IMG/VR virus record: IMGVR_UViG_3300001213_000115
Coordinates: 1-22,655 of that record
Strand: one strand, 5' to 3'
Length of the DNA stretch: 22,655 nt
Origin: a virus
In this document: positions 4,460-22,655 of the stretch, one piece after another
Numbering within the stretch: the first letter of the stretch is position 1
Layout of the letters: every line of letters begins with the position of its first letter
Position numbers and translations under genes: made by a program
The notes under the pieces: generated by a model
Seen by the model: only the letters and a program-made list of their open reading frames with translations
Told to the model about the DNA's origin: nothing
The model's database searches: none

Positions 4460-4809
4460 AATTTAATAAACAAAGTTACATTAGTCAAAACGATGAAGAC
4501 CTTTCTGATTATGTTCCACGCAATGACATTAGCACTTACGCACCACAGAAGGTAGGCAAGAAGCAACCAAACAAGTTAGTAAGATATGGAAGCACAGAGA
4601 TTCACCCTGACTTGTTTGAACCATTTAGTAATACTCCTAATGTTCAATTAGTAGAGATGAAGGACGGTGGTTGGGCCTGTGAAGGTATTGTTGAGTCTTG
4701 CACAGTTAGGTATGTGGGCAGAACAAAAGTAGAAGCAATTTCAAAATACAAAACCTTTTTAGAAAGATGTTCATACCACACACAAACTATTGAGCCTGAC
4801 TGGACATAA
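4456..4809 (+). CDS. Hypothetical protein downstream of terminase (117 aa)
   Basis: The start overlaps the terminase stop in an ATGA junction, which argues for translational coupling. The 117-residue product has a disordered, basic N-terminal half. Its C-terminal half, with WACEGIVESCTVRYVGRTKVEAISKYKTF, looks like a small alpha/beta fold: two or three strands and one helix, resembling short double-stranded-RNA-binding-like or DUF1508-like shapes. I cannot assign a family. Its TAA stop (4807-4809) forms the edge of the left inverted repeat, so the repeat begins exactly where coding ends. Confidence 0.6.
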   Translation: MKFNKQSYISQNDEDLSDYVPRNDISTYAPQKVGKKQPNKLVRYGSTEIHPDLFEPFSNTPNVQLVEMKDGGWACEGIVESCTVRYVGRTKVEAISKYKTFLERCSYHTQTIEPDWT

Positions 4810-4966
4810 AAAAGCACATGCTTAGTAATCAAAAAAGCACATGCTTAGCGATTTGTGCAAAAATCCAAAAAAGCACATGCTTGTAGTATGCAGAGCGATA
4901 AAGCCAGTGAACCATAGTGGTTGTGTTACTTGATGTAATTGCTAACTGCTCCTTCTCAGACATTAT
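4807..4966 (+). repeat. Left arm of about 160-bp inverted repeat
   Basis: This arm matches the reverse complement of 21102-21262. It carries AAAAAAGCACATGCTT at 4808, 4831 and 4867; the matching copies in the other arm have the same spacings of 23 and 36 bases. A 29-bp stretch (4864-4892) is identical to the complement of 21177-21205. Beyond it, similarity continues with small gaps to GCTCCTTCTCAGACATTAT at 4948-4966. Read on the minus strand, each 16-bp unit becomes AAGC-ATGT-GCTT followed by a T run, so weak terminators would face leftwards, out of the virion module. The arm starts in the stop codon of the preceding gene and ends four bases before the late-promoter motif at 4970. Confidence 0.9.
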
Positions 4967-4969
4967 CGA

Positions 4970-4976
4970 ATAAATA
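4970..4976 (+). promoter_or_regulatory. Putative late promoter, ATAAATA motif
   Basis: ATAAATA lies 24 bases before the ATG at 5001, and an AAAGGAAA ribosome-binding site lies in between. It sits just inside the left inverted repeat and would be the first promoter of the whole virion module. It resembles the T4 late-promoter core and recurs at 1299, 8860, 11649 and 15178. Confidence 0.5.
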
Positions 4977-5000
4977 TTACAGCACAAAAGGAAATACAAA

Positions 5001-5309
5001 ATGTCAGGACCAGTAAACAGTAATAGCAATCTAAGTAATGTAGGATTTAAAGTCACTACTACTAACTTAGACATACTTGCATTTGCAGTCACCTCCTGGG
5101 GTGACAAATGGAAACAACGACAAGTGAATCTTCGTTTTAGTAATGGAAGAACATTTGTTGATAATGATAATACCGGCTATGGTATCTATGGTATTGAAAT
5201 AGTCAAGGGACTAGAAGAAGATCCATTAACAGATCCATCTTACTACGATATGACTCAAGGGATGATACTTCAAGACAACGATGGCAAAAACGAATTAGGA
5301 TTTGATTAA
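5001..5309 (+). CDS. Hypothetical protein before tail fibre (102 aa)
   Basis: This is the first gene of the enclosed virion module, preceded by a putative late promoter and an AAAGGAAA site. The 102-residue acidic product appears mostly beta, with GFKVTTTNLDILAFAVTSWG and later GIYGIEIVKGL, and has no membrane segment. I recognise no family. Its stop is followed immediately by the start of the long tail fibre gene, so it may be translated with the fibre and act as a fibre chaperone, an attachment piece or a small structural protein. That role is an inference from position. Confidence 0.55.
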   Translation: MSGPVNSNSNLSNVGFKVTTTNLDILAFAVTSWGDKWKQRQVNLRFSNGRTFVDNDNTGYGIYGIEIVKGLEEDPLTDPSYYDMTQGMILQDNDGKNELGFD

Positions 5310-8843: not shown

Positions 8844-8859
8844 TCAACGAGTGCTACTG

Positions 8860-8866
8860 ATAAATA
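8860..8866 (+). promoter_or_regulatory. Putative late promoter, ATAAATA motif
   Basis: ATAAATATTTG lies in the 46-base gap after the tail fibre gene, 23 bases before the ATG at 8890. It is part of the recurring ATAAATA set and shares the longer string GATAAATATTTG with the copy near 15177. It probably starts the head-gene transcript. Confidence 0.5.
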
Positions 8867-8889
8867 TTTGCTTAAATAGGAAGAACTAA

Positions 8890-9253: not shown

Positions 9254-11602
9254 ATGAATGAATATTCCGGCAGTGGTTCAGCAGGCGGAGACAGCGGTTG
9301 GCTCACTCGTAAAGATAGTCTTGATGCAGAACGTGCAACTCCTCCATCTTCCGACAATGAAGAAAATGAAAGGGATATGGACTTAACTAATGACATCACT
9401 GTTCAATACGAACAAGATGATGATGCATGGCTTGAACTTGCTAGGTCTTCTTACCTAGCATCTACTTCTTATGTTGACACAAACTATCGTGGTCAATGGG
9501 AAGCAGGTATTAACATGTTCAATGGAGTTCACCCAGCAGGTTCTAAATACAATGACCCTAAGTATGAAAAGCGTAGTCGCATATTTCGTCCAAAGATCCG
9601 TTCAGTAATTCGTAAGAATGAAGCAGCAGGTGCAGCAGCATTCTTTTCCAATGCTGACATTATTAGCACTGAAGCAGCCAATGCAAGTGATCCACAACAA
9701 GTTGCATCAGCAGCAATGATGAAAGAATTACTTCAATTCCGTTTGAAGAAGTCCATTAAGTGGTATCAGAACGTAATGGGTGCATTGCAAGATGCTCAAG
9801 TAACTGGTGCATGCTGTGCTCACGTCTATTGGGCTACTGAATCTAAAGTTACTGAAAGAGAAGTTACAATGACAGAATTGGGTCGCACACCTGGTTCTAC
9901 TACTACACCTGATCTTAAGATTCAAAAGACAGTTCCAGAAAATTCCCTTCGTGGTTTTCAAGGTGAGAAAGAACAAGCACCAGAAATGGGAACAGACTTT
10001 GATATTATTAATGCAGGTGAAATCCCAGGTAAGGTTAAGTCACTTAGAGTAGAAACTGTCAAACAAAGAGAAATTGTTCGTGATGAACCATGTGTTGATT
10101 TAATTCCGATTGACTACATTCGTATTCACCCAGGATCTTCTTGGATTGACCCAGTTAATAGTTCACCTTACATCATTGAATTACTTCCAATGTTTGTTGT
10201 TGATGTTAAGCGTAAGATGGCGAATGGCGAATGGAGAGACTATGATGAATCTCTTATTCACGCAGCAATGGATGGTAAGTATTCATCGACTGTGCTTGCA
10301 CGTCTTAAGAACAAGCAAAATCCATACACAAGTCAATCTGGACCAATTACAGATTATGGTGTAGTCTGGGTTCAGCGTCACATCCATAGAAAGGAAGACG
10401 AAGACTATGAATTTTACACATTGGGTGACAAAGCATTGCTTACTACACCACGTCCACTTAAGGACACTGTGTTCCATGGCAAGCGTCCTTATGTCATTGG
10501 TAACTTTGTTCTTGAAACACACAAGGTTTATCCAAGTTCTATTCCTGACATTGCACATGGATTGCAAGAAGAAGCAAATGAAATTGCTAACCAAAGACTT
10601 GACAACATTAAGTTTGTGTTGAACAAACGTTACATTGTTCGTCGTAACAAGCAAGTTGACATTAATGCACTTGTTCGTAACGTGCCAGGCGGTGTTGTTA
10701 TGGCTGATGATCCAGAGAAGGACATTATTCCGATGAGTTACCCAGATGTAACTCAAAGTTCTTATGCTGAACAAGACAGAATCAACGGCGACATGGATGA
10801 GTTGCTTGGTAATTTCAGTGCTGGTTCTATTGCAACTAACCGCCAACTTGCCGAAACTGCTAAGGGAATGTCACTTCTTAGTCAACAAACCAACATCATG
10901 GTTGAGTATGGACTTAGAACATTCACTGAAACATTCGTTGAACCAGTACTTCGCTTGCTTATTTTGCTTGAACAACACTATGAGACAGATGAAAATGTGC
11001 TTGCATTGTGTGGTCAGAAGGCAGAATTGATGCAACGTTTTGGTATTGACCAAGACTTAGACTCATTACTTCAACACGAAGTCACATTGAACGTGAATGT
11101 TGGTATGGGTGCAACAAGTCCAGACCAGAAAGTTAACAAACTTGCACAAGGCCTTGGTGTTCTTAAGAGTATTGCTGGTGCTGCATTTGAATCAGCAGTT
11201 AATTTTGAAGAAGTTACTAAGGAAATTTTTGGTGCACTTGGTTATTCAGATGGTTCTCGCTTCATTAAGCAAGGTGCTAACCCAGAACTTGAACAAGCCA
11301 AGAAGCAAATTCAAGCATTGCAGATGCAACTCAATAGCAAGCAAGCAGATAATGAAACCAAACTTGGTATTGCACGTGAAAACAATCAAACTAAGATGGC
11401 TATTGCTGGTGTTAAGGAAACTAATCACAATCAACGCTTCTTGGTCGATCACTTTGCTAGAGTTTCAACTTCTCAATTACAAAGTCTGGCAACAGATCAG
11501 AGTATGAAGCCAACTACTGTTAAGAATATTGCTGGTCCACAAGCCAATTCACAAGCAATAAGTGCTCCACAACAGAAGCCGCCCACACCAATGGGACAAT
11601 AA
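9254..11602 (+). CDS. Portal protein (head-tail connector, 782 aa)
   Basis: The ring-shaped portal sits at one capsid vertex, admits DNA during packaging and anchors the tail. Its length (782) fits the P22-like large portals (P22 gp1 is 725 residues). An acidic N-terminal region precedes YRGQWEAGINMFNG and RSRIFRPKIRSVIRKNEAAG, which is a typical portal wing start. The mid-region has QEEANEIANQRLDNIKFVLN, the stem-helix pattern seen in this family. The C-terminus (about residues 670-782) is a Gln-rich, coiled-coil-like helix that could form a barrel. It precedes the scaffold and capsid genes in the normal order. The site GAGGACAA lies before its start. I see no frameshift. Confidence 0.85.
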   Translation: MNEYSGSGSAGGDSGWLTRKDSLDAERATPPSSDNEENERDMDLTNDITVQYEQDDDAWLELARSSYLASTSYVDTNYRGQWEAGINMFNGVHPAGSKYNDPKYEKRSRIFRPKIRSVIRKNEAAGAAAFFSNADIISTEAANASDPQQVASAAMMKELLQFRLKKSIKWYQNVMGALQDAQVTGACCAHVYWATESKVTEREVTMTELGRTPGSTTTPDLKIQKTVPENSLRGFQGEKEQAPEMGTDFDIINAGEIPGKVKSLRVETVKQREIVRDEPCVDLIPIDYIRIHPGSSWIDPVNSSPYIIELLPMFVVDVKRKMANGEWRDYDESLIHAAMDGKYSSTVLARLKNKQNPYTSQSGPITDYGVVWVQRHIHRKEDEDYEFYTLGDKALLTTPRPLKDTVFHGKRPYVIGNFVLETHKVYPSSIPDIAHGLQEEANEIANQRLDNIKFVLNKRYIVRRNKQVDINALVRNVPGGVVMADDPEKDIIPMSYPDVTQSSYAEQDRINGDMDELLGNFSAGSIATNRQLAETAKGMSLLSQQTNIMVEYGLRTFTETFVEPVLRLLILLEQHYETDENVLALCGQKAELMQRFGIDQDLDSLLQHEVTLNVNVGMGATSPDQKVNKLAQGLGVLKSIAGAAFESAVNFEEVTKEIFGALGYSDGSRFIKQGANPELEQAKKQIQALQMQLNSKQADNETKLGIARENNQTKMAIAGVKETNHNQRFLVDHFARVSTSQLQSLATDQSMKPTTVKNIAGPQANSQAISAPQQKPPTPMGQ

Positions 11603-12979: not shown

Positions 12980-13954
12980 ATGGCAGGTCAAATTTGGGGC
13001 GTAAGCTCACTTGGTGGATACTTGTATTCGCGTCAGTTAACAAACGTGCTTCGTATGGCAGTTCAGCCTCTTGTTAAATTCCGTCAGTTCGCTGACGTTC
13101 AAGATGCTTCCCAGCAAGGACGTAGAAAGGGTGATACATTCACATGGGACATTGTCTCGGATGTAACAAACCCAGGTGGTGTTTTGGTTGAAACAAACAC
13201 AATGCCACAAACAAACTTCACAATCACTCAGGGCACATTGACAGTTACTGAATGTGGTAACTCTATTCCTTACAGTGAAAAACTTAACAACCTTTCTAAG
13301 TTCCCAGTAATGAGACTTATTGAAAAGGTTCTTAAGAATGATGCAACAAAGACATTCGACCGTCTTGCGTATGCACAGTTCAACGCAACTCCATTGCGTG
13401 TAGTTGGTGGTGGTAACACTGCTTCTCCAACAATCACACTTACAACTAATGGCACTGCTACTGCAACTAACACAGTTGCTTACAGCACTGGCGCTGCTAA
13501 GTTGATTGTTGACATGATGAAGGAACGTAATATTCCTGCATACCTTGGTGATGACTACTACGCCATTGCATGGCCAACCACACTTCGTGGATTCAAGAAC
13601 AACCTTGAAACAATTCACCAATACAGTGACACTGGCTTCAAGTTGATCATGAATGGCGAAATTGGTCGTTATGAAAATACACGCTACATCGAACAAACAA
13701 ACATCGTTAAGGGTAACTCCACTGATGGTATTACTTCGACAGGCACTTGGACAGGTGGTTCGTCTGACTGGATCTTCTTCTTCGGTAATGACACTGTTGC
13801 AGAAGGTATCACAGTTGAAGAAGAAATGCGTGGTCAGATCCCAACAGACTACGGTCGTTCGATGGGTGTTGCATGGTACTACCTTGGTGGATTCGGTATT
13901 GTTCAAACACTTGCATCTAATGCACGTATTGTTAAGTGGGATTCCGCAGCCTAA
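12980..13954 (+). CDS. Major capsid protein (N4-gp56/P22-coat-like)
   Basis: The 324-residue protein follows the scaffold gene and is expected to form the icosahedral shell with an HK97-type fold. An N-terminal helix with LTNVLRMAVQPLVKFRQFAD is followed by RRKGDTFTWDIVSD, an extended-arm and beta pattern found in the N4-gp56 family. GTLTVTECGNSIPYSEKL, PVMRLIEKVLKNDATKTFDR (the probable spine helix) and EEEMRGQIPTDYGRS follow. No pro-peptide cut site is evident. The leader contains a T run and AAAGGA (about 12961-12971), suiting high expression. Antisense long frames across it are shadows produced by codon bias. Confidence 0.8.
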   Translation: MAGQIWGVSSLGGYLYSRQLTNVLRMAVQPLVKFRQFADVQDASQQGRRKGDTFTWDIVSDVTNPGGVLVETNTMPQTNFTITQGTLTVTECGNSIPYSEKLNNLSKFPVMRLIEKVLKNDATKTFDRLAYAQFNATPLRVVGGGNTASPTITLTTNGTATATNTVAYSTGAAKLIVDMMKERNIPAYLGDDYYAIAWPTTLRGFKNNLETIHQYSDTGFKLIMNGEIGRYENTRYIEQTNIVKGNSTDGITSTGTWTGGSSDWIFFFGNDTVAEGITVEEEMRGQIPTDYGRSMGVAWYYLGGFGIVQTLASNARIVKWDSAA

Positions 13955-15108: not shown

Positions 15109-15142
15109 TTAAAACTTAATCCACTTAGTGGAAGGAGGGGAT

Positions 15143-15164
15143 AAAGGGCACTAAGGTGCCTTTT
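15143..15164 (+). terminator. Rho-independent terminator after capsid block
   Basis: AAAGGGCAC and GTGCCTTTT pair (one G-T pair) around a TAAG loop, and T-rich sequence follows. It lies 34 bases after the stop of the 122-residue gene and 13 bases before a putative late promoter, so it separates the capsid and tail transcripts. Confidence 0.65.
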
Positions 15165-15177
15165 GTCTTTAATGCGG

Positions 15178-15184
15178 ATAAATA
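15178..15184 (+). promoter_or_regulatory. Putative late promoter, ATAAATA motif
   Basis: GGATAAATATTTG occurs directly after a terminator and 31 bases before the ATG at 15216. This is the copy best placed for promoter function, and it shares GATAAATATTTG with the copy before the portal-side genes (8860). Confidence 0.52.
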
Positions 15185-15215
15185 TTTGAATATGTTGAAA
15201 AGGAACTAAAAATAA

Positions 15216-16547
15216 ATGAGTCTCAATATTCTTATTATTGACCAGGATAGTGTAGGACTTGCTTTTGCTTGGAGATGTGCAATGGCTGGTCACCAAATTC
15301 GCTGGTGGATGGAAAAGAAAGATGGTTACAATTCAAAGGTCGGTGATGGGTTTCATAGAAACATTACTAAGATTGAGAACTGGGTTGGTTCTGCTAAATG
15401 GGCAGATCTCATCTTTACTACTTCAAATGGATCACAAATAGACAAACTTGATGCAATGCGTAGACGTGGTATCAATACAATCTTTGGTCCAAGTCAAGCA
15501 AGTGCTGATTTAGAAATTAAACGTGGTTTAGGAATGGAATTCTTAGAGAAGCACGGAGTTGAAGTTCCTGAATACAAAATCTTCAACAGTCTTAAAGAAG
15601 CAGAAAAGCACATCATGGAAACAGGCGAAACCTATGTGTTTAAAACATTGGGTGACAATGATGATAAGTCACTCAGTTATGTTGGTAAATCTCCTGCCGA
15701 CTTAATTGCAAGACTTCAGAGATGGCAAAAACTTGGTATGAACCCAGGCGGACAAGTGATGCTACAAAAAGTAGTTAAAGGCACTGAGTTTGCAGTTTCA
15801 ATGTGTATGGGCAAGAATGGTTGGTTAAAGCCAGTCAATGAAGGGTTTGAACATAAGAAACTTATGCCAGGTAATTATGGTGTAAACACTGGCGAGATGG
15901 GAACAGTTGCAAAGTATGTGACTGAATCTAAACTTGCTGATGATATTTTACGTCCACTAGGTGATGCATTGCGTAAACTTGGTCATATTGGCTTTTGTGA
16001 TCTTAACTGCATTATCGATGAAAAAGGAAAGGTATGGCCACTTGAATTTACTAATAGACCAGGATGGCCAATATTCAATTTAATGCTTGCTGCAACAAAG
16101 GGCGATCCAGCACAGTGGATGGTCGATGCACTTAATGGAGAGGATACTCACAATGTCACTTACGAAACTGGTATTATTGTTCTTGGATGCCAACCTAATT
16201 TCCCCTTTGGTGGCTTATCTCAAAAGGAACTCACTGGCACTCCTGTTTACGGCGTTACAAAGAAAAATAGTGAGTTTATTCAACCGCAAGGTGTAATGAT
16301 TGAAAATCTCCCGACAATGGAGAATGATGAAATTGTCACAAGACCTATTTGGGCAACTGCAGGCGATTATCTTTTTGGCGTAACCGGTTTTGGAAGAGAT
16401 ACAGTCACTGCAAGCAAGCGTGCTTATGGTACAATGGATGAATTGCATGTTCCAAATTTGATTGTTCGTAATGATATTGGCGGTAAGACTGCTAAGGAAG
16501 TTCAAACTTTACAGAAGAATGGATTTGCAACCGGTTGGAATGATTAA
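15216..16547 (+). CDS. Diverged PurD-like ATP-grasp ligase (443 aa)
   Basis: The full length aligns by eye with phosphoribosylamine-glycine ligase (PurD, about 430 residues). Matching parts are a Rossmann-like start (NILIID), FGPSQASADLEIKRG for FGP-x-x-x-A-x-L-E-x-S-K, YGVNTGEMGT (221-230) for GPNTGGMG, a G-F-x-x-x-x-x-I-I-D strand, LEFTNRPG (276-283) for IEFNCRFGD, and FGVTGFGRDTVTASKRAYGT with NDIGG near the end. Departures: the GGREH motif near the start is DQDSVGL, the glycine-rich loop is KTLGDNDDKSL, and the metal-binding E-x-N is EFTN. It therefore probably keeps ATP-grasp chemistry (acyl-phosphate, then ligation to an amine) but not GAR synthesis. It lies between capsid and tail genes, downstream of its own putative promoter, so its substrate may be a virion protein or phage DNA. 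That is inference. Confidence 0.75.
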   Translation: MSLNILIIDQDSVGLAFAWRCAMAGHQIRWWMEKKDGYNSKVGDGFHRNITKIENWVGSAKWADLIFTTSNGSQIDKLDAMRRRGINTIFGPSQASADLEIKRGLGMEFLEKHGVEVPEYKIFNSLKEAEKHIMETGETYVFKTLGDNDDKSLSYVGKSPADLIARLQRWQKLGMNPGGQVMLQKVVKGTEFAVSMCMGKNGWLKPVNEGFEHKKLMPGNYGVNTGEMGTVAKYVTESKLADDILRPLGDALRKLGHIGFCDLNCIIDEKGKVWPLEFTNRPGWPIFNLMLAATKGDPAQWMVDALNGEDTHNVTYETGIIVLGCQPNFPFGGLSQKELTGTPVYGVTKKNSEFIQPQGVMIENLPTMENDEIVTRPIWATAGDYLFGVTGFGRDTVTASKRAYGTMDELHVPNLIVRNDIGGKTAKEVQTLQKNGFATGWND

Positions 16548-16559
16548 AGGAAATAATTT

Positions 16560-18059
16560 ATGAGTTTAAATCTCTCTCCAGTAGGTAGCCCAGGTAGTCA
16601 ATTCTTCACTGATCAAGGTGTAGTATTGTCCGGTGGTCTTATTTACGTTTATCTTGCAGGAACAACAACACCTGTCACAACTTACACCACAAGTGCTGGT
16701 ACTACCCCTAACCCAAACCCTATTGTTCTTAATTCACAAGGTCGTCCTCCACAAGAAATTTGGTTGACAGGTGGACAACAATACAAGTTTGTAATTACCA
16801 CAGCACAGGGTGTTCAACTTACCCCAGGTGTTTTTGATAATGTTAGTGGTATTAATGATGTTACAAGTGGTGGTTCACCAACTATTTCTGAATGGCAACC
16901 GTCTAACTACACACCATCCTACGTAAGTGCAACTTCGTTTACAACCGTTGGCAATAGCACTGCTGTGTTTACTCCAGGTAGACGTATTCAAACCACTAAC
17001 ACATCTGGGTTGATTTATGCAACAGTTCTTTCTAGCACGTATGGTGGAAGCAATACAACAGTCGTTTGTGAACCAGATTCTGGTGTGCTTGACAGTGGTT
17101 TAATTACTGCTAACGTAAGTATTTTAAATGCGGCTTATCCAAGTTCTCCAAGTCAACTTCCAAGTGCTGGTCAATTGACATTTGTAAGTTCGACACAAGT
17201 CAAATATGTTCCATACAACGGTGCATTCATAACAATTAATGGTGTTTCTTGCAGAATTCCAAGTGCAGGTGTAACTCTTACATCCCCGGCAATGACTGCA
17301 AATACCGATTACTATGTCTATGCATCTATGGTGTCAGGTGTAATGACATTATCCGTTAGCACCACAGGTGTTACAATTGATGGTATTACTGGTATGCTTA
17401 CAATGATTGGTGATAGCACAAAGACATTAATTGGTCTGGTAACATCTGGTTCATCTGCCAACACATTTGCTTCTGCACAAACTTGGTGGAACAATGGCGC
17501 CATTAATAACGTAAGTGGTGGAGCAACTGGTATTACCTTTACACAAGGCACTGGTGGTAAACTTTCTACAACAACAATGGCTGGAACACTACTTGCTGGT
17601 AATGGCGGATCTGGTGCTGCTGGAACATTAACTGGTTATTTGTATGGTAACGGTGCAAGCCCTTACACTGCAAGCACAACCATACCATCTACCGCAATTA
17701 CTGGTTTGCCAACTGCAGGAACAATTACAAACTTAACAACTGGCACACAGATTGTTAACGGAACATCCACAACTTATGCATTACCTAACCCAAGTTATGT
17801 TGGATGGCAAACATTACCAGGCAATTTGTTGATGCAATGGGGAACTGGTTCTTCCATTAATGCGTCAGTTAATACCTACACTGAGACATTCAACACACCA
17901 TTTACTACTGCTTGCTTCCATGTGAATGTAATTGGTAATACAAACAACGCTGGCGGTAATGCTAATAATTTAGTCACAGGTATGACTACAAGTAATTTTA
18001 CATGTGTTTGGAATAACAACCAAGCAGGATGGATTTACTGGATGGCAATCGGCAAATAA
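16560..18059 (+). CDS. Second tail fibre, gp53-like C-terminus (499 aa)
   Basis: The N-terminal 100 residues (GSQFFTDQGVVLSGGLIYVY, later NPIVLNSQGRPPQEIW and YKFVI) are a common virion-attachment domain of podovirus tail fibres and spikes. The middle is Thr/Ser/Gly-rich beta shaft containing LLAGNGGSGAAG-type repeats. The end, PGNLLMQWGTGSS through AGWIYWMAIGK, matches the tail fibre gp53-like C-terminal domain (QWG near its start, WiAiG at its end), the probable receptor-binding tip. The gene begins 12 bases after the ATP-grasp stop with AAAGGAAA before the ATG. Together with the 1177-residue protein, the phage has at least two fibres, which may bind different surface structures. Confidence 0.8.
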   Translation: MSLNLSPVGSPGSQFFTDQGVVLSGGLIYVYLAGTTTPVTTYTTSAGTTPNPNPIVLNSQGRPPQEIWLTGGQQYKFVITTAQGVQLTPGVFDNVSGINDVTSGGSPTISEWQPSNYTPSYVSATSFTTVGNSTAVFTPGRRIQTTNTSGLIYATVLSSTYGGSNTTVVCEPDSGVLDSGLITANVSILNAAYPSSPSQLPSAGQLTFVSSTQVKYVPYNGAFITINGVSCRIPSAGVTLTSPAMTANTDYYVYASMVSGVMTLSVSTTGVTIDGITGMLTMIGDSTKTLIGLVTSGSSANTFASAQTWWNNGAINNVSGGATGITFTQGTGGKLSTTTMAGTLLAGNGGSGAAGTLTGYLYGNGASPYTASTTIPSTAITGLPTAGTITNLTTGTQIVNGTSTTYALPNPSYVGWQTLPGNLLMQWGTGSSINASVNTYTETFNTPFTTACFHVNVIGNTNNAGGNANNLVTGMTTSNFTCVWNNNQAGWIYWMAIGK

Positions 18060-18068
18060 GGAGTCAAT

Positions 18069-19043
18069 ATGGCTACATCAGGAACTTATTCTTTCACAGT
18101 CACAAGAGATGACATTATTAGAGATGCAATGCTTAACTTAGGTCACTTAGGTGAAGGTGAGGGGCCTACTCCACAGGAAACTGTTGATTGTGCTCGTAAA
18201 CTCAATATGATGGTTAAGCAATGGATGGGTAAAGCAGACTACGCACCAGGACTAAAGACTTGGACACGCAGACAAGGTTATGCTTTCTTATCCGGCACAA
18301 CAGGTCAATATCAAATTGGCCCAAACAATGGTAAGTGGACTAATAGTTTTGTTCAAACATTGGCTTCTGCTGGTTCTGCTTTAGGCACAAATATTTTGTA
18401 TGTGAATTCTGTCGCAGGTATGACTGTTGGCGATAATATCGGTGTTCAAATTAATCAAACAAACAGTGATCCACAAACATTGTTTTGGTCTACAGTTCAA
18501 TCTATTAATTCTACACTGAATCAAATCACTTTAACAACAATGTTACCAGTGTCTGTTCCAGTAGGCGCAGTAGTTTATGACTACACAACTAATGCACAAA
18601 TACCAGTTGCAATTGAAACTGCTGTGTTACGCGATAGTAGCAATGAAGATACAATACTTCGTTTAATGAATATTGAAGATTATCAATCCCTGCCAAGCAA
18701 GACTGACCCAACAAACATCAGTGATCCAACAGCAATTTATGTTGAACGTCAATTGAATTATTCTTATGTGTTTACTGATTGTGCAGCAGCAAACGATGTT
18801 ACTAAGTATTTGGTAATTGAATACATGGAACCAATTCAGGACTTCAATAACCCACTTGATACACCAGAATACCCACAAGAATGGTATTTGGCACTTACCT
18901 GGGGATTGACAAGACAAATTGCACCCATGTTTGGTGTCAATTGGACACAAACTATGCAAGCAAACTTAACTGAAGCAGTTGCTATTGCTCGTAATTTGAA
19001 TCCTGATACAACAAGTATCTACTTTCAGCCAGGACTCGAATAA
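18069..19043 (+). CDS. P22 gp4-like head-tail adaptor with inserted domain
   Basis: The outer parts match P22 gp4-type adaptors, which bind under the portal and start tail assembly. They are TRDDIIRDAMLNLGHLGEGE followed by ARKLNMMVKQWMG near the start, and YPQEWYLALTWGLTRQIAPM near the end. P22 gp4 is 166 residues, whereas this protein has 324. The excess includes a beta-rich stretch at about residues 95-175 (GTNILYVNSVAGMTVGDNI, LNQITLTTMLP), which looks like an inserted small domain facing outwards. The stop overlaps the next gene's start (TAATG), and the following gp10-like gene supports the assignment. The start is preceded by AAGGAGTC. Confidence 0.78.
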   Translation: MATSGTYSFTVTRDDIIRDAMLNLGHLGEGEGPTPQETVDCARKLNMMVKQWMGKADYAPGLKTWTRRQGYAFLSGTTGQYQIGPNNGKWTNSFVQTLASAGSALGTNILYVNSVAGMTVGDNIGVQINQTNSDPQTLFWSTVQSINSTLNQITLTTMLPVSVPVGAVVYDYTTNAQIPVAIETAVLRDSSNEDTILRLMNIEDYQSLPSKTDPTNISDPTAIYVERQLNYSYVFTDCAAANDVTKYLVIEYMEPIQDFNNPLDTPEYPQEWYLALTWGLTRQIAPMFGVNWTQTMQANLTEAVAIARNLNPDTTSIYFQPGLE

Positions 19044-20512
19044 TGAAGAAGATTAATTTATTCGGAACTGAAATTCAAGGATTGTCGCCATACAGCAATG
19101 CGCAAATGCGACTTAACTGCTTTTACGAAGTTGATAATTCAAATGAAAAGGATGTGAAGATATTTGTTAGACCTACACCTGGGTGCAATATCTTTGTGAC
19201 ATTGCCTTCGAGTCCTATTCGTGGTTCGATTGTTATTAACAACTTGCTTTATGTGGTTGCTGGAAATACACTTTATTCAGTGAATACTACTGGAACAGTC
19301 ACAGCATTGGGTGTAATGACATCTTTTAGTGCAACAAACGTCGGTATGGCTTACAATGGAGTTCAGTTAATTATTTGTGCTGGTACCACTGGTTGGATCT
19401 ACACTTTAGTGACTGGAACTTATTCAACTGGTGTTGTTACTGCAGGAACTTTTGCACAAATTACTGCTGCTGCTTACCCAACTGGTGCAACAAGTGTTTG
19501 TTTCTTAAATGGTGCATTCATTGCAAACAATCCAGCAAGCAATGGACAATTTCAAACAAGCACATTTTATGACGGGACTTCTTGGCCTGCATTGAATTTT
19601 GCTACTGCTGAAACAAGTCCCGATGTGTTACTTGGCCTAGATGCATGGCAAGGCACACTTATTCTTTGGGGACAAACTCATATTGAATATTGGCAAGATA
19701 CTGGTGCAAGTTTATTCCCATTTACTCAATTAGTTGGCACTGCACAAAACTTTGGTTTAGCAGCAGTTCAAAGCCGAGTATTGTTCAAAGGAAGTATGAT
19801 CTTCCTAGGAAGAAATCCAGCAGGCCAAGTTCAAGTAATGTTGCTTAATGGATATTCACCTGAACCTGTAAGTGATTCAAACATCGATTACTTGATTAAT
19901 AACCTGTCTACAATAAGTGATGCTGTTGGTTTCAGTTATGTGTTGAATGGACACCACATGTATCAATTGACATTCCCAACTGCACAAAAGTCGTTCTTAT
20001 TTGATGGCGGAACTGGGTTGTGGAGTATTCTTCAAACCGGTGTTGGGTTATCTGGTAGGCATATTGCACAAAATGGAATTGCATTTGGTAATAACTTTTA
20101 CATTACTGACTCAAGTTCTGGTAATCTTTACAGATTTAGCACTGATTACACATCTGACAATGGCACAACAATCAAAAGACAAATTCAAACTAGACACATT
20201 CAAGGTGACGGTAATAGGTTTGGTGTTGATGAATTGTGGTTAGACATGCAAATAGGTGCAGGATTGACAGTTGGCCAAGGACAAAATCCACAACTAATGA
20301 TGCAAGTGTCTAAGGATAATGGCAATACTTGGGGCAATGAACGTTGGGTTTCAATTGGTCAACAAGGACAATATGTCGGCCCAAGAGCAATTTGGCGTAG
20401 AATCGGTCAAGGAAGGGATTTTGTGTTTAGATTCACATTGACCGATCCAGTTCCATTTGTTGTTATTCGTGGTTCAGCAATGATTAGACCTACAGAAGAA
20501 GGAAGTCAATAA
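19043..20512 (+). CDS. P22 gp10-like tail hub / DNA stabilisation protein
   Basis: The 489-residue length is close to P22 gp10 (472). The N-terminal pattern INLFGTEIQGLSPYSNAQMR and VRPTPGCNIFVTLPSS matches the packaged-DNA stabilisation family, including the R-P-T-P-G motif. It is predicted to be mostly beta, with repeated strand units such as GSIVINNLLYVVAGNTLYSV and DGGTGLWSIL and ending WVSIGQQGQYVGPRAIWRR. These make a propeller-like hub that closes the tail and carries fibres or spikes. It is translated from a TAATG overlap with the adaptor gene and overlaps the next gene in the same way, forming a tight tail operon. Confidence 0.82.
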   Translation: MKKINLFGTEIQGLSPYSNAQMRLNCFYEVDNSNEKDVKIFVRPTPGCNIFVTLPSSPIRGSIVINNLLYVVAGNTLYSVNTTGTVTALGVMTSFSATNVGMAYNGVQLIICAGTTGWIYTLVTGTYSTGVVTAGTFAQITAAAYPTGATSVCFLNGAFIANNPASNGQFQTSTFYDGTSWPALNFATAETSPDVLLGLDAWQGTLILWGQTHIEYWQDTGASLFPFTQLVGTAQNFGLAAVQSRVLFKGSMIFLGRNPAGQVQVMLLNGYSPEPVSDSNIDYLINNLSTISDAVGFSYVLNGHHMYQLTFPTAQKSFLFDGGTGLWSILQTGVGLSGRHIAQNGIAFGNNFYITDSSSGNLYRFSTDYTSDNGTTIKRQIQTRHIQGDGNRFGVDELWLDMQIGAGLTVGQGQNPQLMMQVSKDNGNTWGNERWVSIGQQGQYVGPRAIWRRIGQGRDFVFRFTLTDPVPFVVIRGSAMIRPTEEGSQ

Positions 20513-21105: not shown

Positions 21106-21262
21106 TGCCTGAGAAGGAGCAATCAAGCAACACAATCAAGTAGTGGACAACCACTGGTTCAAGTGGCTTTATTGCTTGCATACTACAAGCATGTGCTTTT
21201 TTGGAAAAAGCACGAAATCGCTAAGCATGTGCTTTTTTATTCGCTAAGCATGTGCTTTTTTA
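21102..21262 (-). repeat. Right arm of about 160-bp inverted repeat
   Basis: This is the reverse complement of 4807-4966 with scattered differences. AAGCATGTGCTTTTTT occurs at 21187, 21223 and 21246, with the same spacings as in the left arm. The main local difference is a five-base A tract where the left arm's complement has a T tract (about 21205-21209). The arm begins in the stop codon of the last virion gene and lies between converging genes. Read on the plus strand, the units are hairpin-plus-T-run elements that face rightwards, out of the virion module. Confidence 0.9.
21205..21238 (+). terminator. Hairpin with T run in right repeat arm
   Basis: AAAAAGCAC (21205-21213) can pair with GTGCTTTTT (21229-21237) around a 15-base loop, ending in a T run. 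Because the left arm carries the opposite A/T tract at this place, the longer stem forms only in this arm. It would help end the late transcript. Confidence 0.5.
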
Positions 21263-21298: not shown

Positions 21299-21658
21299 TT
21301 ATTTCTGGGAATCGCCTTTCCTAACTCGATAATTGTCTTCTACTGAATCTGGTGTGCTTACTTCAACTATTGAACCTTGCTCAATGCAAAACAACTGATG
21401 TGGCATAAGTGGTGGAATATGCAATACATCACCTGCAACCAATGTTTGTTCTTGTTCAGTTGCAGTTTTTGTATCAATAGTAATAACTCTGAACTTACCA
21501 ACAGTCACATACCAAGTTTCATCTTTAACTGCATGAAAGTGCATACTAAACTTAGCACCTGCATTAAAATTAAGCAACTTACCACAATACTTGTCATTGG
21601 TTGCAAAGATAAATTCAGAACCCCAACCCTTTTCTACAAATCCATTTAGTCTTGTCAT
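21299..21658 (-). CDS. Cupin, sugar-phosphate isomerase-like (119 aa)
   Basis: I chose the ATG at 21658-21656, one base after the kinase stop, because AAGGAAA stands before it. A longer frame that begins inside the kinase gene is rejected. The single-domain cupin has the complete metal motif: Gly34, His40-x-His42, Glu47 and the following Gly, within GAKFSMHFHAVKDETWYVTVG. The second motif is GDVLHIPPLMPH. The start NGFVEKGWGSEFIF resembles the W-G-x-E opening of type II phosphomannose isomerase-like cupins. Such small cupins often sit in surface-sugar gene clusters, and the neighbouring heptose kinase supports a role in sugar-phosphate or nucleotide-sugar metabolism. The exact reaction is unknown. 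Confidence 0.72.
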   Translation of the reverse strand: MTRLNGFVEKGWGSEFIFATNDKYCGKLLNFNAGAKFSMHFHAVKDETWYVTVGKFRVITIDTKTATEQEQTLVAGDVLHIPPLMPHQLFCIEQGSIVEVSTPDSVEDNYRVRKGDSQK

Positions 21659-21659
21659 T

Positions 21660-22565
21660 TTAGTTTCCTTTAAAAATACTTTCGTAAGTCGGATTATGTG
21701 TTCCGACATGTCTACAAACTTCTGCTGCTGCTTTACTTGCATAAACACATGCTTCATGCAAACTTATGTGACCCCACGTAGCAGCAATGGTACTTATCAC
21801 TGAATCACCGGCACTGCACACATCAACTACTTCTGTTGCTAAAGTTGGAAAATCAAATACACCTTCATTGGTGAACAATGCCATTCCTTCTTCCGAACGA
21901 GTTAGCAACAGGTTCTTAAAGTTGTATTCATTCATTAAGTTACGAACATTTGTATTATTCCACTTAGTCCCTAAAACTAATTCAATTTCAGCAATGTTTG
22001 GAGTAATTAAATCAGCACCTGCATACTTTGTCCAATTAGAACCTTTAGGATCAACTAATACAGGAATGCGTTTCTCCTTGCTTTTTTCAATGAAATATGG
22101 CGAATTTTGCGGGGTAATATTACCCTTGGCATAGTCTGATACTACGACCACATCTGCGAAGGCAATTTCGGTGGCAAATAATGACTTTAAATTATTTGCA
22201 GTTTCTTCTGGTAACTTCTTTTCGAAGTCAACTCTAAGCAATTGTTGATTATGAGCAAGTATTCTTAACTTAACAATTGTTGGAAACCAATCTCCGTGAG
22301 TGATTGGACTAATTAATTTCTTCTGAAGCATTGTCTTCATTATGTTTGCATCTTCATCATAACCCCTTACGTAAAGAAGTTTAGTGTCAGCACCTAATGC
22401 AGCGCAATTGGCAGCCACATTTGCAGCACCACCAAGCACTTCTTTTGTGCTTGTGTGGAGTGCTACAGGAACAGGTGCTTCTGGAGAAATGCGTGTTACT
22501 GATGTGGACCAGTAACGATCCAACATCGCATCACCTACTACAAGAACTCTGTTTTTGAATTTCAT
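21660..22565 (-). CDS. Heptose-7-phosphate kinase (HldE kinase-domain type)
   Basis: This is a PfkB/ribokinase-fold enzyme. The family closest by eye is the kinase domain of HldE (RfaE), which converts D-glycero-beta-D-manno-heptose 7-phosphate to the 1,7-bisphosphate for LPS core heptose. Visible motifs are VVGDAMLDRYW (residues 9-19), EVLGGAANVAANCAALGA (42-59), VVSDYAKG (141-148), VDPKG (171-175), TPNIAEIE (188-195), and the nucleotide/anion-hole region DVCSAGD with catalytic Asp254. The usual G-A-G-D is S-A-G-D here. Its 301 residues cover the kinase only; the nucleotidyltransferase domain of full-length HldE is missing. I chose the start at 22565 because it has AAAGGA and overlaps the upstream stop (TAATG). 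Confidence 0.8.
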   Translation of the reverse strand: MKFKNRVLVVGDAMLDRYWSTSVTRISPEAPVPVALHTSTKEVLGGAANVAANCAALGADTKLLYVRGYDEDANIMKTMLQKKLISPITHGDWFPTIVKLRILAHNQQLLRVDFEKKLPEETANNLKSLFATEIAFADVVVVSDYAKGNITPQNSPYFIEKSKEKRIPVLVDPKGSNWTKYAGADLITPNIAEIELVLGTKWNNTNVRNLMNEYNFKNLLLTRSEEGMALFTNEGVFDFPTLATEVVDVCSAGDSVISTIAATWGHISLHEACVYASKAAAEVCRHVGTHNPTYESIFKGN

Positions 22566-22655
22566 TATTGTCCTTTGATGTTCTTCAAATACCAAATACT
22601 TGGCTTAAAGTTTAACTTACCAGCAACTACTTCAAATGCATCCCAAAGCATGTCA
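22565..22655 (-). CDS. C-terminal end of an unidentified gene (partial)
   Basis: Twenty-nine codons in frame run in from the right edge of the window and end at TAA, which overlaps the kinase start (TAATG). The visible end contains MLWDAFEVVAGKLNFKPSIW and then YLKNIKGQ. The codon use and ribosome-binding overlap match the phage genes nearby, so it is probably the preceding gene of the same sugar operon. No family can be named from this fragment. Confidence 0.6.
   Translation of the reverse strand, partial: DMLWDAFEVVAGKLNFKPSIWYLKNIKGQ

Follow-up and report, generated by a model that had tools for sequence, protein, structure and literature searches.

A family of putative PurD-fold ATP-grasp ligases encoded among phage virion genes

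Introduction

In the reaction catalyzed by PurD (GAR synthetase), ATP phosphorylates a carboxylate and an amine then attacks the acyl phosphate. Homologs of this enzyme in viruses have been read as metabolic genes, with several surveys counting viral purD/GART among the auxiliary metabolic genes (PMC11360552, PMC11097641, PMC12043954) and an ocean survey reporting that the viral copies outnumber cellular ones (PMC11360552). ATP-grasp proteins of other kinds are also described in phages. The cassettes of phages phiEco32 and LUZ24 encode Amidoligase_2, a COOH-NH2 ligase, a glutamine amidotransferase, and an ATP-grasp protein of ~290 aa (PMC3890496), and modification of phage proteins has been proposed for the phage ATP-grasp peptide ligases of the R2K/CDC123 type (PMC7824862). 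Literature searches found no phage ATP-grasp of the PurD type acting on tail proteins. The present analysis concerns a PurD-like gene located among the virion genes of a virus recorded in IMG/VR, together with its relatives in other viral and bacterial sequences.

Results

The gene and its product

The window (i.e., the whole stretch of DNA that was analysed, IMG/VR virus record IMGVR_UViG_3300001213_000115, 22,655 bases) contains a terminase, a large fibre, an SU10-type portal, a capsid protein, the PurD-like ligase, a second fibre, and gp10-like tail genes. The features referred to below are:

9254-11602, + strand: portal protein, SU10-type
12980-13954, + strand: major capsid protein of the upstream block (phrog_1357)
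15138-15169, + strand: strong terminator-like hairpin separating the capsid block from the ligase gene (stem of 14 bp with a T-rich 3' side; MFE z -3.8)
15177-15187, + strand: GATAAATATTT, candidate late-promoter-like element; recurs at 8859-8869 and, in the form AATAAATATTA, at 4969-4979
15216-16547, + strand: PurD-like ATP-grasp ligase gene (open reading frame, ATG start, 443 aa)
16560-18059, + strand: tail-fibre/tailspike gene downstream of the ligase gene (499 aa)
18069-19043, + strand: phrog_12985 protein, tail gene after the fibre (same clusters as in relatives)
19043-20512, + strand: P22 gp10-like tail stabilisation/head-closure protein (clusters shared with relatives)

The initial annotation proposed that the 443-aa protein follows PurD from end to end, and sequence profiles, domains, solved chains, and predicted fold all agree with this. 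The TIGR00877 (purD) profile matches residues 78-425 on model positions 81-423 of 425 (E=7.4e-26), Pfam GARS_A is found above its cut-off and GARS_C below, and solved PurD chains match the protein (best 3e-19). The TIGR00877 score of 90.9 bits, however, is about one third of the cut-off of 288, which places the protein below the equivalog threshold for PurD. Structure prediction, suggested earlier as a check on the ATP site, returned a confident AlphaFold model (pLDDT 92.8, pTM 0.92) with a PurD-type ATP-grasp fold, in which only residues 148-150 of an altered loop fall below pLDDT 50. The best 15 PDB fold matches are all PurD (TM 0.69-0.76), so that the protein belongs by fold with PurD. Neither the PHROG families nor PADLOC gave a match or contain such a family, and the viral structure library has no close model (BFVD viral ATP-grasp models reach a query-normalised TM of at most 0.47).

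Residues retained and lost

Residue roles in PurD follow the analysis of the Aquifex structure given in PMC8880213, with the Aquifex numbering verified against the 2yw2 alignment, and 127 distinct phage proteins were aligned with 19 cellular PurD sequences. The relevant positions in the window protein are:

E100, R103 (Lys in PurD), K143, K151, Q184 (Glu in PurD), E191, K214, E277: retained ATP/Mg residues
E227, T279: marks of the clade
R281: carboxylate-binding arginine

All mapped ATP/Mg residues of PurD are either retained or conservatively exchanged across the 127 proteins. E100 and K143 are present in every one and E191, K214, and E277 in 126 each, while the substitutions relative to PurD are K103 to R (126), E185 to Q (127), D212 to E (126), N285 to T (127), and G to E227 (126). 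The carboxylate-binding arginine (PurD Arg287, R281 in the window) is invariant (127 of 127). The window protein combines the fold with the ATP-binding Lys/Glu set by which the ATP-grasp superfamily is recognized.

The substrate-binding parts of PurD present a different pattern. The initial annotation had described the GGREH motif, the glycine-rich loop, and the exact E-x-N metal motif as lost. The loss of GGREH extends to the whole phage family, in which residues 9-15 are variable, whereas cellular PurD carries G-x-GGREH with G, R, E, and H invariant in all 19 sequences. For the other two motifs the description needs qualification. The loop is indeed altered, from GLAAGKG to GDNDDKS in the window protein (GDxxDKS in the family), but its lysine, K151, is retained; likewise, E-x-N has become E277-F-T279 in the window protein and E-x-T in 126 of 127 phage proteins, but the metal/ATP site survives, with E277 kept and Asn to Thr the only change in the metal motif. 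The NTGGMGAY stretch of PurD has been reduced to NTGE-GT, and 96 of the 127 proteins have an additional acidic residue, D262. The glycine-ligand trio of PurD (Asp212, Arg287, and Glu292) is not intact, as Asp is replaced by Glu, Arg is kept, and Glu292 is lost throughout the phage family (L, A, I, and others instead).

The lone exceptions to these counts all come from a single decayed copy (L014:8001-9215), where short deletions and substitutions have removed nearly all of the catalytic set (R103, K151, E191, E212/K214, E227, and E277) although the frame is still open. Median dN/dS in the family is 0.073 (314 pairs), a value indicating that the ligase is maintained as an enzyme.

Family size, phylogeny, and a bacterial paralogue

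The ligase is a widespread family, with more than 500 viral members and a bacterial paralogue, and no peculiarity of one phage. A scan with the window protein recovered 123 relatives in viral contigs, and a scan with the alignment recovered at least 571 IMG/VR stretches encoding relatives. The bacterial genome scan gave 14 loci, 13 of them close to the phage proteins; among these 13 contigs some are plainly prophage-like (Paraburkholderia, Rhodanobacteraceae), because the copies have retained tail and ejection neighbours. Most other INPHARED matches were records resembling bacterial contamination (two with purH beside purD) and served as cellular outgroups.

The fourteenth locus (L102) is a bacterial paralogue situated amid ordinary chromosomal genes. 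Among 96 genomes sampled from its phylum, which could be Patescibacteria, 7 encode relatives with 49-59% identity to it; the genomes measure 0.5-2 Mb. True PurD is missing from five of the eight genomes with the paralogue, while the other three have both, one of these PurDs scoring just under the family cut-off. The paralogue twice adjoins a GNAT gene, overlapping it at L102:7956-9766 and separated by a 1-bp gap at L224:3505-5443, and further copies adjoin proS or metK. No family name was found for this PurD-like protein (L102, L219-L224).

A profile search for a clade apart from cellular PurD had been suggested as a check, and the tree separates the two clearly: the phage proteins and the bacterial paralogue are split from all 19 cellular PurDs, including those encoded by carrier genomes themselves, with support of 100/100 and a total branch length of 3.3. 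The phage proteins are monophyletic in 44% of bootstrap trees, with the paralogue falling either inside or outside the phage set. A normal PurD is encoded in 10 of 12 carrier genomes, and in the same 10 genomes the ligase relatives score 65-120 bits versus 432-574 for the true PurD.

Gene order around the ligase

As proposed initially, the ligase gene of the window lies between the capsid block and the second tail fibre, and its placement outside any nucleotide-metabolism cluster is likewise confirmed: it sits in a virion operon, and searches for three families (PurF, PurN, and PurM) found none in 14 phage records. The usual order in relatives is tail hub (P22 gp10-like), optional modifier genes, P22 gp7-like DNA-ejection protein, further large proteins, ligase, fibre, and lysozyme. 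Neither PHROG nor Pfam gives an informative match for the large protein that precedes the ligase in many relatives, and its label as an ejection protein reflects its position and the phrog_598 DNA-ejection protein encoded two to three genes earlier. An overlap of exactly 4 bp joins the stop of the preceding gene to the start of the ligase in 95 of 142 relatives, and in 129 of 134 the gene that follows starts no more than 20 bp from the ligase. Genes were called as longest open reading frames, so overlaps other than those of exactly 4 bp may be exaggerated. The window and L008 differ from the usual order in that the ligase-fibre pair follows the capsid block and not the ejection genes, and in L012 the pair lies on the strand opposite the other virion genes.

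Modifier-type genes (GNAT, Asp/Asn hydroxylase, and cupin) occur upstream of the ligase in 61 of the 86 relatives with enough sequence, and they may be a group of modifying enzymes belonging to virion operons. Examples of these Asp/Asn beta-hydroxylase, GNAT, and cupin genes, located between the tail hub and ejection genes, are L045:1061-1648, L054:3465-3917, and L159:1728-2246.

Several other genes were recorded in passing. A 460-aa protein without Pfam or PHROG match (L008:6541-7923, - strand), present in 11 relatives, appears by eye to join a methyltransferase-like front to a heptosyltransferase-like NIGIMRLGAIGD stretch. After the tail genes of the window, the opposite strand encodes a cupin (21299-21757, -; phrog_7851, "cysteine dioxygenase") and a PfkB protein resembling heptose-7-phosphate kinase (21660-22595, -; rfaE_dom_I 307 bits, just under the cut-off), the latter gene occurring also in L128 and L131. 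Near the other end, an unassigned 325-aa protein at 8-985 is followed by a NUMOD3-only remnant at 985-1302, which probably derives from a homing endonuclease.

Promoter and terminator signals

The initial annotation assigned the ligase gene a late promoter of its own. A sigma-70 scan ahead of 15216 detected no promoter, but the candidate element GATAAATATTT resembles the late -10 box of phage T4, TATAAATA, and it follows the hairpin at 15138-15169; together these make a separate late unit plausible in the window only. The shorter ATAAATATT occurs four times in the window against 0.39 expected, three times on the + strand before the genes at 5001, 8890, and 15216, a count that exceeds shuffles, yet the intergenic DNA is AT-rich. 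In most relatives there is no room for such a promoter, since 95 of 142 ligase genes start inside the upstream stop codon, and the proposal can therefore be kept for the window at most. A further element, AAAAAAGCACATGCTTAG / CTAAGCATGTGCTTTTTT, is present in three copies at 4808-4884 and three at 21182-21262, in opposite orientation at the two ends of the late region, where the copies look like tandem terminator hairpins bracketing the late block.

The neighbouring tail fibre

The product of 16560-18059 has an N-terminal P22/Pam1-type head-binding domain of ~100 aa, whose best fold matches are the tails of cyanophages Pan3 and Pam1 and the P22 tailspike head-binding domain, and a Gp53-like C-terminus. 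Two adaptor types are known at the N-termini of the fibres encoded behind the ligase (the P22-type head-binding domain and a second type), and they are mutually unrelated in sequence. A fibre of either type is the product of the next gene on the same strand in 102 of 135 assessable loci, and in 16 of the other 33 it is encoded no more than three genes away. Conversely, among the 77 fibre loci most similar to the fibre of the window, none has the ligase directly upstream, and one further locus has it nearby. Ligase distances correlate with those of the tail hub (r=0.82) and the gp7-like ejection protein (r=0.78), versus r of 0.38-0.47 for the fibre N-terminus, a comparison limited by the shortness of the fibre domain and by a mixed result with the second adaptor type. 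As the ligase lineage tracks the tail hub and ejection proteins, and this fibre type is common without a ligase, the fibre is no obligatory partner.

Discussion

The phage protein is most likely not a GAR synthetase but an active carboxylate-amine ligase expressed late, and the earlier reading of it as a late amine ligase is sound, the ATP site and the carboxylate-binding arginine being preserved in a protein encoded in a virion operon. Both catalysis and ligase chemistry are inferred; the conserved ATP site does not prove them, and it is compatible with a kinase or other chemistry. Taken together, the data make it reasonably probable that this is a working carboxylate-amine ligase with the PurD fold minus the PurD pocket, acting late, most likely on a virion protein or assembly product. 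The enzyme would bind Mg-ATP in the manner of PurD and move the gamma phosphate onto a carboxylate that R281 and E212 hold in place, after which the acyl group would pass to an amine. The loss of Glu292 suggests that the acid is not recognized as free glycine, and the loss of GGREH, with NTGGMGAY now NTGE-GT, suggests an amine other than phosphoribosylamine; the substrate may be a different small molecule, or the side chain or terminus of a protein. The protein would be synthesized late, in most relatives with translation coupled to the ejection-protein genes, and inherited with the virion core, features that make a conserved protein of the ejection or tail machinery, or an assembly-time product, the most likely target. 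A part in virion production gains support from late expression and from inheritance resembling that of core genes; however, co-inheritance with core genes is equally expected from vertical descent and singles out no target. A virion-protein target is plausible as a candidate only, and, as the initial annotation stated, the sequence does not reveal the target.

Two roles outside the virion can largely be set aside. As a true PurD boosting host purine synthesis during infection, the protein would have the full-length homology and PurD fold that it does have, and would agree with the surveys that treat viral purD/GART as auxiliary metabolism (PMC11360552, PMC11097641, PMC12043954). A score of 91 bits where the cut-off is 288, the family-wide disappearance of the PRA motif GGREH and of Glu292, the alteration of the E-x-N motif in 127 of 127 proteins, the separate clade, the PurD already present in hosts, and the lack of any other tested pur gene in the phages together make this highly improbable. 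Equally difficult to credit is the suggestion that an amino acid is joined to a modified base in DNA before packaging. Late expression would suit such a target, but the annotation of the complete carrier genome MW202796 lists no base-hypermodification genes, only a cytosine methyltransferase, and bacterial paralogues are present in cells; this part of the initial proposal is unsupported.

More weight attaches to the fibre encoded just downstream, which the ligase may modify as its partner in a two-gene module. The frequency with which an adaptor-type fibre comes next or within three genes, the movement of the pair together (to the opposite strand in L012 and behind the capsid block in the window and L008), and the folding of the downstream domain as a P22/Pam1/Pan3 tailspike head-binding domain are all consistent with such a module. 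Nevertheless, fibre N-termini swap freely and it is the tail hub and ejection genes that the ligase follows, none of the 77 same-type fibres is directly preceded by a ligase, and the two adaptor types after the ligase are unrelated in sequence, so that the obligatory link to a fibre target is weakened and the module is unlikely. The main rival is a host-directed role, in which a late host-takeover or surface-modifying enzyme (e.g., for superinfection exclusion or envelope amidation) fills the position of a moron, flanked by the ejection and tailspike genes. P22 carries sieA between these genes and P22-like phages have exclusion genes in the equivalent slot, so the virion-operon position could reflect a moron slot. 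The heptose-kinase-like gene and cupin just downstream on the other strand in the window (the kinase also in two more carriers) agree with this role, as does the cellular paralogue in small-genome bacteria, whose existence means that chemistry of this type can serve a cell. Morons, however, are usually patchy, whereas the ligase is inherited as stably as the virion core and is translationally coupled to it, and the family has no match in PADLOC; a host-directed role is thus judged no likelier than the fibre module. Within the preferred reading of a late ligase acting in virion production, a more specific version can be put forward tentatively, in which P22-like phages use a rebuilt PurD pocket to attach an acid or amino acid to one of their conserved ejection or tail proteins, with comparable sister chemistry in small-genome bacteria.

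Comparison with known systems

The R2K/CDC123-type ligases share with the PurD-type phage ligase an ATP-grasp domain and a proposed role in phage protein modification, but they belong to a different ATP-grasp clade, and fold similarity is weak (TM 0.23 for a CDC123-like Lausannevirus protein). The phiEco32/LUZ24 cassettes likewise involve a podovirus ATP-grasp protein proposed to form amide bonds; there, however, it is encoded in the early region with partners, whereas the PurD-type ligase is longer and lies in the late virion region without them, no Amidoligase_2, COOH-NH2 ligase, or GATase neighbours being found among the scanned window proteins or the annotated genes of MW202796. The bacterial paralogue (L102, L219-L224) is closer, falling in the same clade with R103, Q184, E212, E227 (6 of 7), E-x-T, and R281, but differs in its ~29% identity (L102), its lack of GDPAQWM, and its chromosomal location. 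From PurD itself (TIGR00877, PF01071+PF02843) the phage ligase retains domain order, fold, ATP/Mg residues, the carboxylate-binding arginine, and the C-terminal "yR.DIG", while differing in score (91 versus 288 bits), in having GDxxDKS, GE-GT, and E-x-T in place of the PurD motifs, in lacking GGREH and Glu292, and in forming a separate clade encoded in virion operons. The family is large and under strong purifying selection, and it points to a putative chemistry tied to virion production. The purine "purD" label on its members is probably wrong, and if they sit among the surveyed viral purD/GART genes, the purine claim for them derives from a name; R103, Q184, E212, E227, E-x-T, and GDPAQW together provide a signature by which the family can be told from PurD and re-annotated.
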